The notes under the pieces: generated by a model
Database searches by the model: none
What the model saw: only the letters and a program-made list of their open reading frames with translations
Told to the model about the DNA's origin: nothing
Shown: positions 19,938 to 24,789 of the stretch, piece by piece
Position numbering within the stretch: the stretch's first letter is position 1
Layout: each line of letters starts with the position of its first letter
Translations under genes and position numbers: made by a program
Origin: an uncultured Clostridia bacterium
GTDB taxonomy: Bacteria > Bacillota > Clostridia > UBA1381
Length of the DNA stretch: 64,000 bases
Direction: 5' to 3'
NCBI GenBank assembly: GCA_947624165.1
Contig: CANQJC010000001.1
Coordinates: 62,001-126,000 of the forward strand

Positions 19938-22900
19938 TTATTTTATATCGGACAGCGACACGACGTTGACCGATTCGGACGTGTAACGCTTTTCCATTAC
20001 GTCTGTCAGCGCGGTCACGGTGTCGAGACTTGTCATGATAGTAACGTCGCATTCTATCGCCGTGCGGCGTATTTTAAAGCCGTCGGAATGAATGTCGTTA
20101 CCCTTTTTCGGTATGTCGATTATTAGGTCGATCATGCCGCTCCTGATTACGTCCAGAACATTCGGCACGCCCTCGGAAATTTTCTTTGCCGTCTGTACGG
20201 GTATTCCGTTATCGCTTAGGAGCTTCGCCGTACCCGACGTGGCTATGAAGCTGCATCCGAACGCGGCGAATTTTTTCGCGATCGGCAGGAAATTTTCCTT
20301 ATCAAGGTCGCGTACCGTAACAAGAATTGTCGAACGCTCCTTCGGTATCGTCGTACCGGCAGCCACGAATCCCTTGTACATCGCTTCCGTAAAGCTGTGT
20401 CCCACGCCCAGCACCTCGCCTGTGGAACGCATCTCGGGACCGAGACTGACCTCGACCTGCGGCAGCTTTTCCGTCGAGAATACGGGTACCTTTATGGCGA
20501 CGGTATTCGTCTGCTTGGCGATACCCGTCGAATATCCCATTTCCTTCAGCTTTTTGCCGAGCATTATATTGGTTGCGATGTCGATAACAGGCACATTCGT
20601 CACCTTAGTTATATAAGGCACGGTACGGCTTGAACGCGGGTTGACCTCGATGATGTACAGCTCGCCGCGGAATTCTATGAACTGAATATTTATCATGCCT
20701 ATAACTTTAAGCTCGATCGCTATTTTGTATGTGACGTCGACGATTTTATCGATTATGTCGTTCGTAAGGTTCTGCGGCGGGTATATTGAGATAGAGTCGC
20801 CGCTGTGTACACCCGCTCTTTCGAGATGTTCCATAATACCGGGTATAAGCACGTCCTCGCCGTCGCATATCGCGTCGACCTCTATTTCGCGGCCGCCGAG
20901 ATAACGGTCGATAAGCACGGGGTTTTTCGAATCCTTGGCGAAAGCGTCGGTCAGATAGCGTACAAGATCGATTTCGTTGCGCGTAATTTCCATACCCTGA
21001 CCGCCGAGTACGTATGACGGACGAACAAGAAGAGGATATTCGAGCTTACCGGCTTCTTCGACGCCCTCCTTGACGCTCCATACCGCTTTACCCTTCGGAC
21101 GCTTTATGCCGAGCTTTTCGAGCATTTCGTCAAATTTTTCCCTATCCTCCGCTTCGTCGATGTATTTCGGCTGCGTACCGAGTACGGGTACGTTCATCTC
21201 GTCGAGGAAATTCGCGAGCTTTATCGCCGTCTGACCGCCGAACTGGAGGATTACGCCGCTCGGTTTTTCGAGAAGAATAATGTTGTAAACGTCTTCTTCC
21301 GTGAGCGGTTCGAAATACAGCTTGTCGGAGGTGTCAAAATCCGTTGAGACTGTCTCGGGATTGTTATTTATGATTATCGTTTCAACGCCCGCCTTTTCGA
21401 GCGCGAGTATACTGTGTACGGAGCAATAGTCAAATTCTATACCTTGACCTATGCGTATCGGACCCGAACCGATAACTATTACCTTCTTCCTATCCGAGGG
21501 GAAGGACTCGGTCGTATCGTCGTAGGTCGAGTAGTAATACGGCGACACGGCTTCAAATTCACCGGCGCACGTATCGACCATTTTGTAAACGGGAGTAACG
21601 CCGAGCTTTACGCGCAGATCGAATACGTCGTTCGCGCGGCAGCCGGTAAGCTCGGCTATGCCCTTGTCCGAGAAGCCCATTTTTTTGTACCTTTTGAGAG
21701 TGTCTCGGTCAAGGTCGCCGAGCGTGAGTTTTTTCAAATCCTCCTCCGCGTCGACTATATTCTTTATCTTTTTGAGGAAGAACGGATCCATACCCGTTAT
21801 TTCCGCAAGCTTTTCCATATTATAATTACGCCGTATCAGCTCGGCAAGGTCGAATAAGCGTTCATCGTCGGGGACGATAACGCGCTGTTTAAGCTCGACG
21901 GTCGAACGTTCCTTCGACGATTTTCTTTCAAGCGTAAACTGACCGATCTCGAGCGATCTTACGCCTTTGAGCAGCGACGCTTCGAACGTGTTGCCGATAG
22001 CCATGATTTCACCCGTCGCCATCATCTTTGTGCCGAGACTGCGCTTCGCGCCGAAGAATTTATCGAACGGCCATTTCGGTATTTTGGTAACGATATAGTC
22101 GATCGTCGGCTCAAAGCACGCGTATGTTTTACCCGTAACGGCGTTTTTGATTTCGTCGAGATTGTATCCGAGAGCGATTTTTGCCGCTATCTTGGCTATC
22201 GGATATCCCGTCGCCTTTGACGCGAGCGCGGACGAACGGCTCACGCGCGGGTTTATTTCAATAACGGCATAATTAAAGCTTTCGGGATCGAGCGCGAACT
22301 GAACGTTGCAGCCGCCCTTGATTTCTATTGAGTTTATAATGTCAATTGCGGCTTTCCGAAGCATCTGATATTCCTTGTCGGCAAGCGTCAGCGACGGAGC
22401 CACAACTATCGAATCGCCCGTATGTACGCCGACGGGATCGACGTTCTCCATCGAGCACACCGTTATACAGTTACCCGCGCCGTCGCGCATTACTTCAAAT
22501 TCAATTTCTTTCCAGCCCTTAATGGATTTCTCGAGAAGAACCTGACCGACGCGCGAAAGGTGAAGTCCCTGAGACAGGATCGTTTCAAGCTGCTCGGGAT
22601 TCTCTGCGATGCCGCCGCCCGTACCGCCGAGAGTGTAAGCCGGACGGACGATCACGGGATAGCCTATCTGCTTAGCGAAGGCTATGCCGTCATCGAGATT
22701 CGTTACGATTTCGGACGGCGCGACGGGTTGGTTTGTACGTTCCATAAGTCTCTTGAAGCTGTCGCGGTCCTCACCCTCCTTTATGGACGGTATCGACGTG
22801 CCGATAACCTTCATATTGTATTTTTCAAACACTCCGTTGTCATAAAGCTCACAGGCGAGATTCAGACCCGTCTGACCTCCCATACCGGCGATGATCGAGT

Positions 22901-23150
22901 CGGGACGCTCCTTTTGTATGATTTTTTCGACGTACTCCGCCGTCAGCGGTTCTATATACGTCTGATTTGCCATGCCGCGGTCGGTCATTATCGTAGCGGG
23001 GTTGGAATTGACGAGGACAACGTCTATTCCTTCTTCCTCTATCGCGCGGCAAGCCTGCGTGCCGGAATAGTCAAACTCCGCAGCTTGACCGATTACGATT
23101 GGACCGGAGCCTATCACGAGAACTTTTTTTATACTTTTATCTAATGGCAT
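19938..23150 (-). CDS. carB: carbamoyl-phosphate synthase large subunit
   Basis: Makes carbamoyl phosphate from bicarbonate, ammonia and two ATP for pyrimidines and arginine. The 1070 residues show the duplicated ATP-grasp plan: [20 protein letters not shown] at the N-terminus and [19 protein letters not shown] at about residue 555. An oligomerisation domain lies between. The C-terminal MGS-like allosteric domain (about 935-1070) includes [20 protein letters not shown]. It follows carA on the minus strand after a 91-base gap that holds two hairpin repeats. No other pyr or arg gene lies nearby. Confidence 0.97.
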
Positions 23151-23241: not shown

Positions 23242-24291
23242 TTATATTTCCTTTAGAAATCTGTCAAACAGCCAGCCCGTATCCAAGGGACCGGGGGAGG
23301 CTTCGGGGTGGAACTGTACGCTCATGATAGGAAGCGTTTTATGGCTTATACCCTCGCATGTCCCGTCGTTTACGTTCACGAACGTTTCCTCAACGTCGTC
23401 GGGCAGGTCGGAGACTATATAATTGTGATTTTGACTCGTGATAAAAACGTTTCCCGTTTTCAGGTCCTTGACGGGGTGGTTGCCGCCGTGATGACCGAAT
23501 TTAAGCTTTTTTGTCTTTGCGCCGAGCGCGAGACCGATGATCTGATGCCCCATGCATATACCGCAGATAGGGATTTTGCCGATAAGCTTTTTGACCGTCT
23601 CGACGGTGCCGGGCGCGTCGAGCGGATTGCCGGGTCCGTTCGAAAGAAATACGAGATCGGGCTTTACGCTCATTATCTTTTCCGCGTCCGTGTCGGCGGG
23701 GAATACCGTCAGCTTACAGTCTCTTTTTACAAGATCGCGGACGATACCCTGCTTCGCGCCCATGTCTATGAACGCCGCATGACGGGAACCTTTTTCGTTG
23801 ACCGTGTATATTCCGTCCGCTGTCGTGCTCATTATCACGCGGCTGTTATCGAGTGAATCCATAAGGATTTTTACGTCCTCGTCGCGCGGCTCGCCCATCA
23901 TTATAACGCCTTTCATCGCGCCCACGTCACGTATGATTTTCGTAAGAGCACGCGTGTCTATGCCCTCCAGACCCACGACGCCCTGCTGCGCGAGAAAATC
24001 CGCGAGGTTCATTTCGTTTCGGAAATTGGAAGGGAAGTCGCATTTTTCTCTTACGACCAACGCTTTTAAATTTGCGCGGTTCGCTTCCATGTCCTCAAGG
24101 TTTATCCCGTAGTTACCTATAAGAGGAAAAGTCATCGTGACGATCTGCCCCGCGAACGACGGGTCCGTGATCGTTTCCTGATAGCCCGTCATACCCGTTG
24201 TGAATACGACCTCGCCGACGATGTTTTTCTCCGCGCCGAACGTATCTCCGACAAACCGCGCGCCGTTTTCAAGAATAAGCTGTGCTTTCAT
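23242..24291 (-). CDS. carA: carbamoyl-phosphate synthase small (glutaminase) subunit
   Basis: Supplies ammonia from glutamine to CarB; 349 residues. The N-terminus KAQLILENGARFVGDTFGA and VVFTTGMTGYQETITDPSFAG are typical of CarA. The class I glutaminase domain holds the nucleophile in ICGICMGHQIIGLALG (about residue 243), KFGHHGGNHPVKD and the catalytic His/Glu in VQFHPEASPGP. The start at 24291 has AAGGAG upstream; this site overlaps the stop region of an upstream 42-codon leader ORF. The gene lies downstream of a strong terminator hairpin in its own leader, so transcription attenuation is likely. Confidence 0.97.
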   Translation of the reverse strand: MKAQLILENGARFVGDTFGAEKNIVGEVVFTTGMTGYQETITDPSFAGQIVTMTFPLIGNYGINLEDMEANRANLKALVVREKCDFPSNFRNEMNLADFLAQQGVVGLEGIDTRALTKIIRDVGAMKGVIMMGEPRDEDVKILMDSLDNSRVIMSTTADGIYTVNEKGSRHAAFIDMGAKQGIVRDLVKRDCKLTVFPADTDAEKIMSVKPDLVFLSNGPGNPLDAPGTVETVKKLIGKIPICGICMGHQIIGLALGAKTKKLKFGHHGGNHPVKDLKTGNVFITSQNHNYIVSDLPDDVEETFVNVNDGTCEGISHKTLPIMSVQFHPEASPGPLDTGWLFDRFLKEI

Positions 24292-24306
24292 ATAATTTCT
24301 CCTTGC

Positions 24307-24435
24307 TCACATAAAAAACAGCAACGCCGCCGAATCGGCAACGTTGCCTGTAAATGAATTACCTTTTAAATTGAAAATAAAAAATGAAGGAATACGAGAA
24401 CGACCTTGCTCACAACGATAAACGCGCGAATCCAT
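24307..24435 (-). CDS. candidate leader peptide of carAB (42 residues)
   Basis: This ORF begins with ATG at 24435, 6 bases after a strong GGAGGAGA site, and ends with TGA at 24307-24309, 15 bases before carA. Its first 14 residues read MDSRVYRCEQGRSR, with four arginines. It then crosses a T-rich stretch coding FF-I-F (24362-24390) and runs straight through the carA leader terminator, so its last codons are the terminator's T run. This plan resembles the 44-residue pyrBI leader peptide of E. coli. The arginine codons would also fit arginine sensing by ribosome stalling. No homologue is known to me; the coding status is inferred from the ribosome site and placement. Confidence 0.6.
   Translation of the reverse strand: MDSRVYRCEQGRSRIPSFFIFNLKGNSFTGNVADSAALLFFM
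24313..24347 (-). terminator. intrinsic terminator (attenuator) in the carA leader
   Basis: On the minus strand GCAACGTTGCCG pairs with CGGCGGCGTTGC (12 pairs, two of them G-U) around the loop ATT, followed by TGTTTTTT. It lies about 110 bases after the predicted transcript start and 22 bases before the carA start, wholly inside the leader ORF. Confidence 0.85.
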
Positions 24436-24465
24436 GGCACTCTCCTCCTTCAATCTATCTCAGAT

Positions 24466-24494
24466 ATTATAGCACCGCCCTTTATGATTGTCAA
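24466..24494 (-). promoter_or_regulatory. sigma-A promoter of carAB
   Basis: On the minus strand a perfect TTGACA (24489-24494) and a perfect TATAAT (24466-24471) are spaced by 17 bases. The transcript should start near 24459, giving a leader of about 170 bases with the peptide ORF and terminator. Confidence 0.88.
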
Positions 24495-24584: not shown

Positions 24585-24613
24585 TTGACAACCGAACGGC
24601 GTAAGAGTATAAT
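24585..24613 (+). promoter_or_regulatory. sigma-A promoter of glnK-amtB
   Basis: A perfect TTGACA (24585-24590) and a perfect TATAAT (24608-24613) with a 17-base spacer. The leader to the glnK start is about 170 bases. A strong unregulated promoter followed by terminators suggests control by antitermination. Confidence 0.88.
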
Positions 24614-24642
24614 AACACCGAAGTCAGAAATTCGGCACAACG

Positions 24643-24683
24643 GCGTGTTTGCGTGGGATATCCCACCGCAGACGCGCTTTTTT
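24643..24683 (+). terminator. leader terminator A upstream of glnK
   Basis: GCGTGTTTGCG pairs with CGCAGACGCGC (two G-U pairs), extended by TGGGA/TCCCA past a bulged C, followed by TTTTTT. It is preceded by a small hairpin CCGAA/TTCGG (24618-24635). It would stop transcription about 60 bases after the start. Confidence 0.85.
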
Positions 24684-24722
24684 GTTTCGAACGCGGCTCA
24701 AAAATTTTAATTTAAACACAAA

Positions 24723-24760
24723 GACGTGTTTGCCGATTTAAACGGCGGACGCGTCTTTTT
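24723..24760 (+). terminator. leader terminator B upstream of glnK
   Basis: GACGTGTTTGCCG pairs with CGGCGGACGCGTC (13 pairs, three G-U) around the loop ATTTAAA, followed by TTTTTGTTT. It shares CACAA...CGTGTTTGC and GACGCG with terminator A 80 bases upstream, so the two look like a tandem duplication. The glnK start lies 30 bases further on. Confidence 0.85.
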
Positions 24761-24789
24761 GTTTAATAAATGAAAGGGGAGATTTTGTC

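Follow-up and report, generated by a model that had tools for sequence, protein, structure and literature searches.

The carAB operon of an uncultured gut Clostridia bacterium is preceded by a short leader that, judging from its sequence and by analogy with E. coli, is probably a pyrBI-type (pyrL-like) attenuator, in which a ribosome coupled to RNA polymerase would sense UTP and tie carAB expression to pyrimidine supply. The proposal builds on a leader whose anatomy, conservation, stop codon placement, operon context and tract selection are established here by sequence comparison. An earlier note, made from the 64 kb stretch of DNA analysed here (the window), had proposed a pyrBI-like leader peptide running through a terminator, and this is supported by related carA upstream regions, in which the terminator, the U-rich tract and the terminator-reaching open reading frame (ORF) are all conserved. 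The host genome (G000) is a 1.76 Mb assembly that is 82% complete. Its named relatives are uncultured Clostridia, including Candidatus Ornithomonoglobus merdipullorum (carA identity 76%), and the carA of three Monoglobus-labelled metagenome-assembled genomes (MAGs) is 64–67% identical to that of the window.

Anatomy and spread of the carAB leader

All parts of the leader lie on the minus strand. The promoter (TTGACA-17-TATAAT, 24466..24494) matches the consensus at 12 of 12 positions and has a TG 5' of the −10 box. Transcription is predicted to start about 25 nt 5' of the leader start codon, and no run of three T is found directly 3' of the −10 box in the window, the start site being a prediction only. 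The leader Shine-Dalgarno sequence, AAGGAGGA (24443..24450), was read from the sequence and is followed by an ORF of 42 codons (24307..24435, translation MDSRVYRCEQGRSRIPSFFIFNLKGNSFTGNVADSAALLFFM) with four arginines within residues 1–14. In the predicted fold, a stretch complementary to the Shine-Dalgarno region (24385..24405) provides the 3' arm of a candidate gate or pause hairpin, and a U-rich tract (approximately 24362..24390), recognised by base composition and codon choice, is a candidate UTP-sensitive pause region. The ORF then passes through an intrinsic terminator (24313..24348) with its stem at 24348–24320 and a run of six T at 24318–24313. Downstream lie the carA ribosome site AAGGAG (24299..24304, read from the sequence), carA for the small subunit of carbamoyl-phosphate synthase (23242..24291, an ORF named from its sequence) and carB for the large subunit (19938..23150, an ORF named from sequence and position). 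The 169-nt leader folds with −49.5 kcal/mol (z = −3.2), and none of 200 shuffles was as good.

Most of what the earlier note had read from the window stands, namely the perfect −35/−10 pair, the strong leader ribosome site, the 42-codon ORF, the T-rich stretch of the transcript, the four arginines among the first 14 residues, and the likeness to E. coli pyrBI in the order promoter, ORF, U-rich region, terminator and gene. Two details need correction. The terminator is located inside the ORF as claimed, with a stem of 13 pairs according to the terminator caller instead of 12, and the leader stop codon (24309–24307) does not overlap the carA ribosome site, as had been stated, but is adjacent to it, 2 nt to its 5' side.

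Divergently from carA, the plus strand of the window carries a perfect promoter that leads into a tandem of strong hairpins, both with a T run of their own (24585–24775; fold −66.9 kcal/mol, z −7.8, equalled by none of 200 shuffles). These hairpins have no Rfam match at gathering score in the window. Directly 3' of them are a P-II-like gene (24790) and an ammonium-transporter-like gene (25164), both named from sequence, and the hairpins look like a double attenuator of this ammonium operon.

Homologues of carA at E ≤ 1e-60 are present in 56 of 61 genomes. We scored 61 non-duplicate carA upstream regions (seven duplicates removed) and found the leader layout in 42, the window's own and near-identical members such as L054 and L055 included, in a sample that is not neutral since 14 regions were added for looking of interest. 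These 14 came from 80 further loci, 40 of which were viewed, yielding also 8 repeats and 18 loci that were left out; L077–L116 lie outside the sample, as do 16 order-level carA matches and L144, L179–L182 and L189. Among the 18, L042 has no upstream DNA, and the other 17, mostly from Bacilli and other Clostridia, show no such leader by eye. The 42 leaders comprise 37 from the window's family (genera g1, g4, g6, g10, g11, g12, g13, g15 and g16) and five from loci outside the sampled genomes: three Monoglobus-labelled loci, L053, and L055, whose leader resembles that of L054.

A neutral count is given by the family list, in which 45 of 70 genomes have carA at E ≤ 1e-110. With five loci at contig ends set aside (G019, G022, G034, G061, G079), 37 of the 40 judgeable loci carry the leader, and the three that do not are all from g9. 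No clear leader ORF is seen in the carA upstream regions of L024, L028 and L121 of this genus; they contain AT-rich stretches with T runs, and the attenuator of g9 may have been lost or changed. No such leader stands directly 5' of the more distant carA of five other family genomes (G017, G021, G029, G032, G035). Also scored without being counted as leaders were L019 and L118, where the contig end is too near, L031, L032 and L139–L143 from other families of the order, L134–L136 and L138 from g3 and g7, L066 and L076 from other Clostridia, and L137 (g15), which has the terminator and lacks the ORF.

The spacing of the parts recurs as well. A promoter with at least 9 of 12 matches precedes 40 of the 42 leaders, 39 of those 40 having a 17-base spacer; the exceptions are L014, truncated at a contig end, and L025, where the scanned stretch shows no clear promoter. 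From the −10 box to the start codon there are 28–36 nt (40 leaders scored), and from the start codon to the terminator stem 87 nt in the window (median 86.5, range 66–107, n = 42), with ORFs of 23–42 codons; stem starts were set by hand for L020, L051, L053 and L054–L056, and a TTG start for L051. The gap between terminator and carA is 28 nt in the window and 24–39 nt in several loci, which leaves no room for a separate promoter, and spans 24–109 nt in the correctly called leaders other than L014. In L014 it measures 203 nt, and about 150 nt of it contain repeated copies of a GTAGGGGCGGTCATCGGCC sequence. Judged chiefly by its recurrence in relatives, the layout is not a matter of chance.

Stop codon, frame and U-rich tract

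The leader stop codon ends within the terminator stem in 38 of 42 leaders, usually 2–3 nt inside and in L012, L014, L017, L018, L053 and L056 15–18 nt inside, and the ORF of the window runs right through the stem (42 nt). Of 21 leaders with TGACAATG at the start of the stem, 20 use the TGA in it as their stop codon. With one terminator caller, stop and stem overlap in 22 of 23 callable leaders, the other 19 having terminators below its threshold, as against 3 of 68 ordinary G000 genes with a terminator from a 478 kb sample; the search began 60 nt before the stop for leaders and 25 nt for genes, only L001 lying beyond 25. Placement of the stop inside the stem is what a ribosome-masking device needs.

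Among 13 aligned leader pairs, 8 of 12 internal gaps are multiples of three (9; 3; 3,3,3; 6; 3,6). Two single-base gaps occur just 5' of the stem within the window's own group (L001/L012 and L017/L012), where the ORF shifts frame and stays open into the stem. Gaps of 8 and 1 were counted for the divergent pair L131/L132; apparent 6-nt gaps in the L044 pairs reflect a shifted stop codon and are not indels. This pattern implies that the frame is kept up to the stem and not necessarily within it, and we regard the indels as moderate evidence for the frame. The open frame alone is mild evidence for translation; it stays open in shuffles with a probability of 0.24 on average, which corresponds to about 10 of 42 leaders. 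Substitutions number 33, 29 and 45 at the three codon positions (14 partly overlapping, non-independent pairs, two contributing none), and selection on the amino acids therefore looks weak. A dN/dS-like argument for the peptide fails, wobble changes being only slightly more frequent. Across the leaders compared the peptide sequence is hardly kept, and the four peptides scanned, of 42, gave no Pfam match.

By contrast with the peptide, the U-rich tract is, on the evidence of synonymous resampling, kept at the nucleotide level through codon choice. The best 10-codon window holds on average 18.1 U against 13.9 after synonymous resampling (42 leaders), and U content exceeds resampling with carA codon usage at p < 0.05 in 33 of 42. 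The Phe codons of the U windows are TTT in 105 cases and TTC in 7, compared with 284 and 324 in carA, a count made in windows chosen for U, for which the resampling is the fair test. At 30–15 nt 5' of the terminator stem, U makes up 61% of the positions (42 leaders). The motif TTNTTT is found in 37 of 42 tracts, a raw count for a motif that is expected in any U-rich tract. Many leaders also have a U run and then an A run (TTTTTAAAAA type) just 5' of the stop codon.

In its predicted fold, the ribosome site of the window leader can pair with the stretch just 5' of the U tract. Over 42 leaders, the best pairing between Shine-Dalgarno sequence and tract averages −15.5 kcal/mol compared with −12.0 for shuffled tracts, with p < 0.05 in 15 leaders and p = 0.094 for the window alone. 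When partners were swapped among one representative each of 14 partly related classes, 4 of 5000 permutations were as good as the own partners (mean gain 2.9 kcal/mol), which suggests that ribosome sites and tracts have changed together; matched partners include UAAAGG with CCUUUA in part of g1 and AAAGAGAGGA with UCCUCUUU in part of g15. The Shine-Dalgarno sequence has a predicted unpaired probability of 0.63 as long as the tract is unmade and of 0.17 once it has been transcribed, a drop seen in 40 of 42 leaders; with shuffled tracts the site closes too (0.28). We infer that the pairing closes ribosome entry once polymerase has passed, or that it acts as a pause hairpin.

PyrR control in the family

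G000 encodes a PyrR-like protein (215.9 bits) and is one of 31 genomes above cut-off among 41 scanned. The earlier note had seen no PyrR binding motif in the leader, and searches agree: PyrR RNA (RF00515) has no match in G000 at E 0.1 under strict filters, and Rfam returns no match at gathering score in the window, hence no known riboswitch or T-box. A PyrR site in the leader was looked for and none was found, and miRNA- and sRNA-type Rfam matches were discarded as far below cut-off. Elsewhere in G000, no terminator is visible in the short 5' region of a pyrR-pyrB-pyrC-pyrF-pyrK-pyrD cluster, whose genes were named by translation.

Sister genera g3 and g7 are organised differently, carA being positioned 3' of pyrC. 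RF00515 lies directly before pyrC in G088 (54.9 bits), G017 (54.8 bits) and G021 (55.9 bits; cut-off 54) and, below cut-off, in G032 (52 bits) and G035 (44 bits). A separate match of 47 bits occurs in G032 (C35). Since PyrR RNA precedes pyrC in g3 and g7 and the leader is found elsewhere, two kinds of attenuator serve genes of the same pathway within one family. G017 and G035 also have short ORFs with weak ribosome sites near terminators, which were not counted as leaders. Another 12 of 70 genomes have weak RF00515 matches (26–36 bits, cut-off 54), seven of them leader carriers (G004, G010, G014, G030, G065, G072, G078). The neighbourhoods of two of the 12 were viewed (G004 and G010), with no pyrimidine gene recognised among the neighbouring ORFs, and the weak matches are taken for chance.

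Two carA loci of other Clostridia combine features of both kinds. In L066, a weak RF00515 match (2375–2491; 31.9 bits, cut-off 54) overlaps the ribosome site of a short leader ORF that runs into a terminator, and in L076 a PyrR-like site, recognised by eye, overlaps the ribosome site of a short carA leader ORF. These leaders may be hybrids in which PyrR acts together with a leader peptide. Replacement of one sensing system by another, leader peptides included, is reported, for example at hisS (PMC2965389), and the best reading of the window's family is that the attenuator took the place of PyrR control.

Signal, mechanism and known systems

Ribosome coupling is suggested by the frame, the position of the stop codon and the lack of peptide conservation, and UTP is proposed as the signal, with pausing and antitermination as the response, from the genes in the operon, from the U-rich tract and by analogy with E. 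coli. With UTP plentiful, polymerase would pass quickly through the U-rich tract, the terminator would fold and transcription would stop before carA. With UTP scarce, polymerase would slow in the tract and the ribosome on the leader could catch up; standing at the leader stop or upstream of it, it would mask the terminator's 5' arm with its body, no hairpin would form and carAB would be transcribed. The position of the ribosome would matter in this scheme and the sequence of the peptide hardly at all. A low-UTP pause combined with a ribosome that blocks the hairpin is described for pyrL (PMC10135430), and ribosomes in E. coli affect terminators near stop codons (PMC4824070).

The nature of the signal was addressed through the genes behind the leader. 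An exact search of 70 family genomes for the commonest terminator sequence gave 22 matches (reversed control pattern, 0), 21 at carA coordinates and one before pyrC in G028; leaders with other terminators are invisible to this pattern, the window's included, which differs from it and is not among the 22. Of 391 genomes sampled from the class, three contain the pattern, and all three belong to the window's family. The G028 leader has a promoter, a ribosome site and a 21-codon ORF with its stop 6 nt 5' of the stem, and is followed by pyrC, pyrK and pyrD (named from translations). A leader common to carAB and to a pyrimidine-only operon points to pyrimidines as the signal.

This bears on arginine sensing, which the earlier note had raised as a second possibility. 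A leader of the amino-acid-sensing type, with the fate of the terminator decided by ribosomes that stall at Arg codons or at the Phe codons in the U tract, would be in keeping with the early arginines of the window peptide and the three to four in its close relatives L012, L014, L017 and L018, with the fact that carAB also feeds arginine synthesis, and with Phe as the commonest residue over the leaders (12%); moreover, uORFC-13-1, a uORF from the literature in which a U run precedes a terminator, is read as Phe-sensing (PMC8632094). However, Arg codons are not conserved in relatives, being absent from 16 of 42 leaders, and pyrC-pyrK-pyrD, which also stands behind such a leader, is unrelated to Arg or Phe; arginine sensing was rejected as the main reading for these reasons. 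In addition, ribosomes stalled 5' of the terminator would not block it, which is the opposite of what induction requires, no conserved antiterminator was noticed (without a systematic search), and an ArgR homologue in the genome could act at the promoter, so that amino acid sensing in either form seems highly improbable. We give similarly little credence to a leader with an incidental ORF that is bound by PyrR or a different protein, or by a ligand as in a riboswitch. The PyrR protein encoded in G000 and the PyrR RNA sites before pyrC in g3 and g7 would suit it, but neither the Rfam search of the window nor that of G000 for PyrR RNA found such a site, the only conserved fold seen beyond the terminator is the weak Shine-Dalgarno pairing, and the stop position is conserved.

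It is also very unlikely that the ORF is an ordinary small gene with its own terminator and that carAB is expressed, unregulated, by constant leakage. Terminators close behind stop codons are usual in G000 (41 of 68 within 12 nt), yet actual overlap of stop and stem is unusual there (3 of 68, as against 22 of 23 leaders), codon choice preserves the U tract but the peptide is poorly preserved, and the leader is tied to genes of the pathway, as the pattern matches at carA (21) and pyrC (1) indicate. Ribosome coupling could, in turn, serve a signal other than UTP: a coupled attenuator might sense the ease of leader translation, carAB following translation capacity or elongation speed, with the Shine-Dalgarno/tract hairpin, possibly together with a NusG-type TTNTTT pause, setting timely ribosome loading. 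The stronger pairing with the own tract (matched in 4 of 5000 permutations over 14 classes), the predicted loss of Shine-Dalgarno access (0.63 to 0.17, in 40 of 42) and TTNTTT in 37 of 42 tracts are compatible with this, and the B. subtilis vmlR leader has a NusG-dependent TTNTTT pause (PMC9226507). We nevertheless consider it unlikely, as the pairing arises largely from composition (p < 0.05 in 15 of 42; 0.28 with shuffled tracts), the motif is expected in any U-rich tract and the operons concerned are pyrimidine operons.

A UTP-sensing attenuator of the pyrBI type would also have to operate against the habit of its genome. A short distance between stop codon and terminator stem is a mark of runaway transcription, and in G000 this distance has a median of 10 nt and is at most 12 nt in 41 of 68 cases (simple terminator calls). 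Purine content, a criterion for runaway transcription (PMC13323073), is 54.6% over 337 G000 genes (simple gene calls), and in B. subtilis polymerase outpaces ribosomes (PMC9226507). G000 looks like a runaway-transcription genome, in which ribosomes should not keep up. Since ribosomes trail and near-stop terminators work in a genome of this type, coupling needs a strong pause of its own, which the U tract and the TTNTTT motifs could supply, by analogy with vmlR. A more elaborate scenario is possible and, to our minds, doubtful: in a family with runaway transcription, PyrR control of a pyrimidine operon may have been replaced by a local coupling device, a rigidly spaced leader in which polymerase speed would be gauged by whether a ribosome loads before the pyrimidine tract has closed the Shine-Dalgarno sequence, after which the U-tract pause would let the ribosome reach the terminator, so that coupling would be built in at one operon while being absent genome-wide.

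Compared with E. coli pyrBI/pyrL, the leader has the same order of promoter, short ORF, U-rich region, terminator inside the ORF and first gene, and in the window the ORF likewise runs through the terminator, with 87 nt from ATG to stem against 88 nt in pyrL. Unlike pyrL, which controls pyrBI, it precedes carAB or pyrC-pyrKD; most relatives' ORFs end at the 5' edge of the stem; the Shine-Dalgarno sequence is predicted to pair with the U tract, whereas E. coli has a separate hairpin before the U-rich stretch; and the host genome appears to be of the runaway type. In E. coli pyrBI, reiterative U addition at initiation is accessory and not part of the attenuator proper. Because the genes differ and the four scanned peptides lack a Pfam match, the leader is not called a homologue of the E. 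coli attenuator. The PyrR attenuator of Bacillota (RF00515) serves the same pathway and, in g3 and g7, the same genes, with a terminator before the first gene in the loci viewed; it differs in that no PyrR RNA was found in the window or in G000, where a putatively translated ORF takes its place.

Among the matches listed, the nearest published layout in a relative of Firmicutes is uORFC-13-1 of Acholeplasma, which differs in standing before aroF and being read as phenylalanine-sensing, and for which the excerpt of the source describes no ORF end inside the terminator (PMC8632094). B. subtilis vmlR and Clostridioides cplR are Gram-positive cases that combine a translated uORF, a hairpin and a terminator, but their excerpts describe ORFs of 3 codons, antibiotic-stalled ribosomes and an alternative antiterminator (PMC9226507, PMC10201436), whereas the leaders here have ORFs of 23–42 codons reaching the terminator. 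The carA motif of Polynucleobacter is likewise a conserved element directly before carA, yet it is an extended hairpin and proposed riboswitch of beta-proteobacteria, with no terminator-overlapping ORF described in the excerpt (PMC8632094). A 2010 survey, which added a histidine case in bacilli, stated that until then Proteobacteria and Actinobacteria were the only groups with demonstrated leader-peptide systems, the ermC leader being set aside as atypical (PMC2965389). For Clostridia, no pyrBI-type leader appears in the open-licence PubMed Central literature among the matches listed.

Control of the pyrBI type is a textbook case associated with enteric bacteria and with ribosomes that closely follow the polymerase. 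Such a scheme, known above all from E. coli, is unexpected in Clostridia, and a conserved counterpart there would, if true, imply an independent or transferred origin. It would also mean that a protein-sensed attenuator, PyrR, has been exchanged for a ribosome-sensed one within a single family, and would make testable a ribosome-dependent antitermination in bacteria whose polymerase normally outruns the ribosomes.
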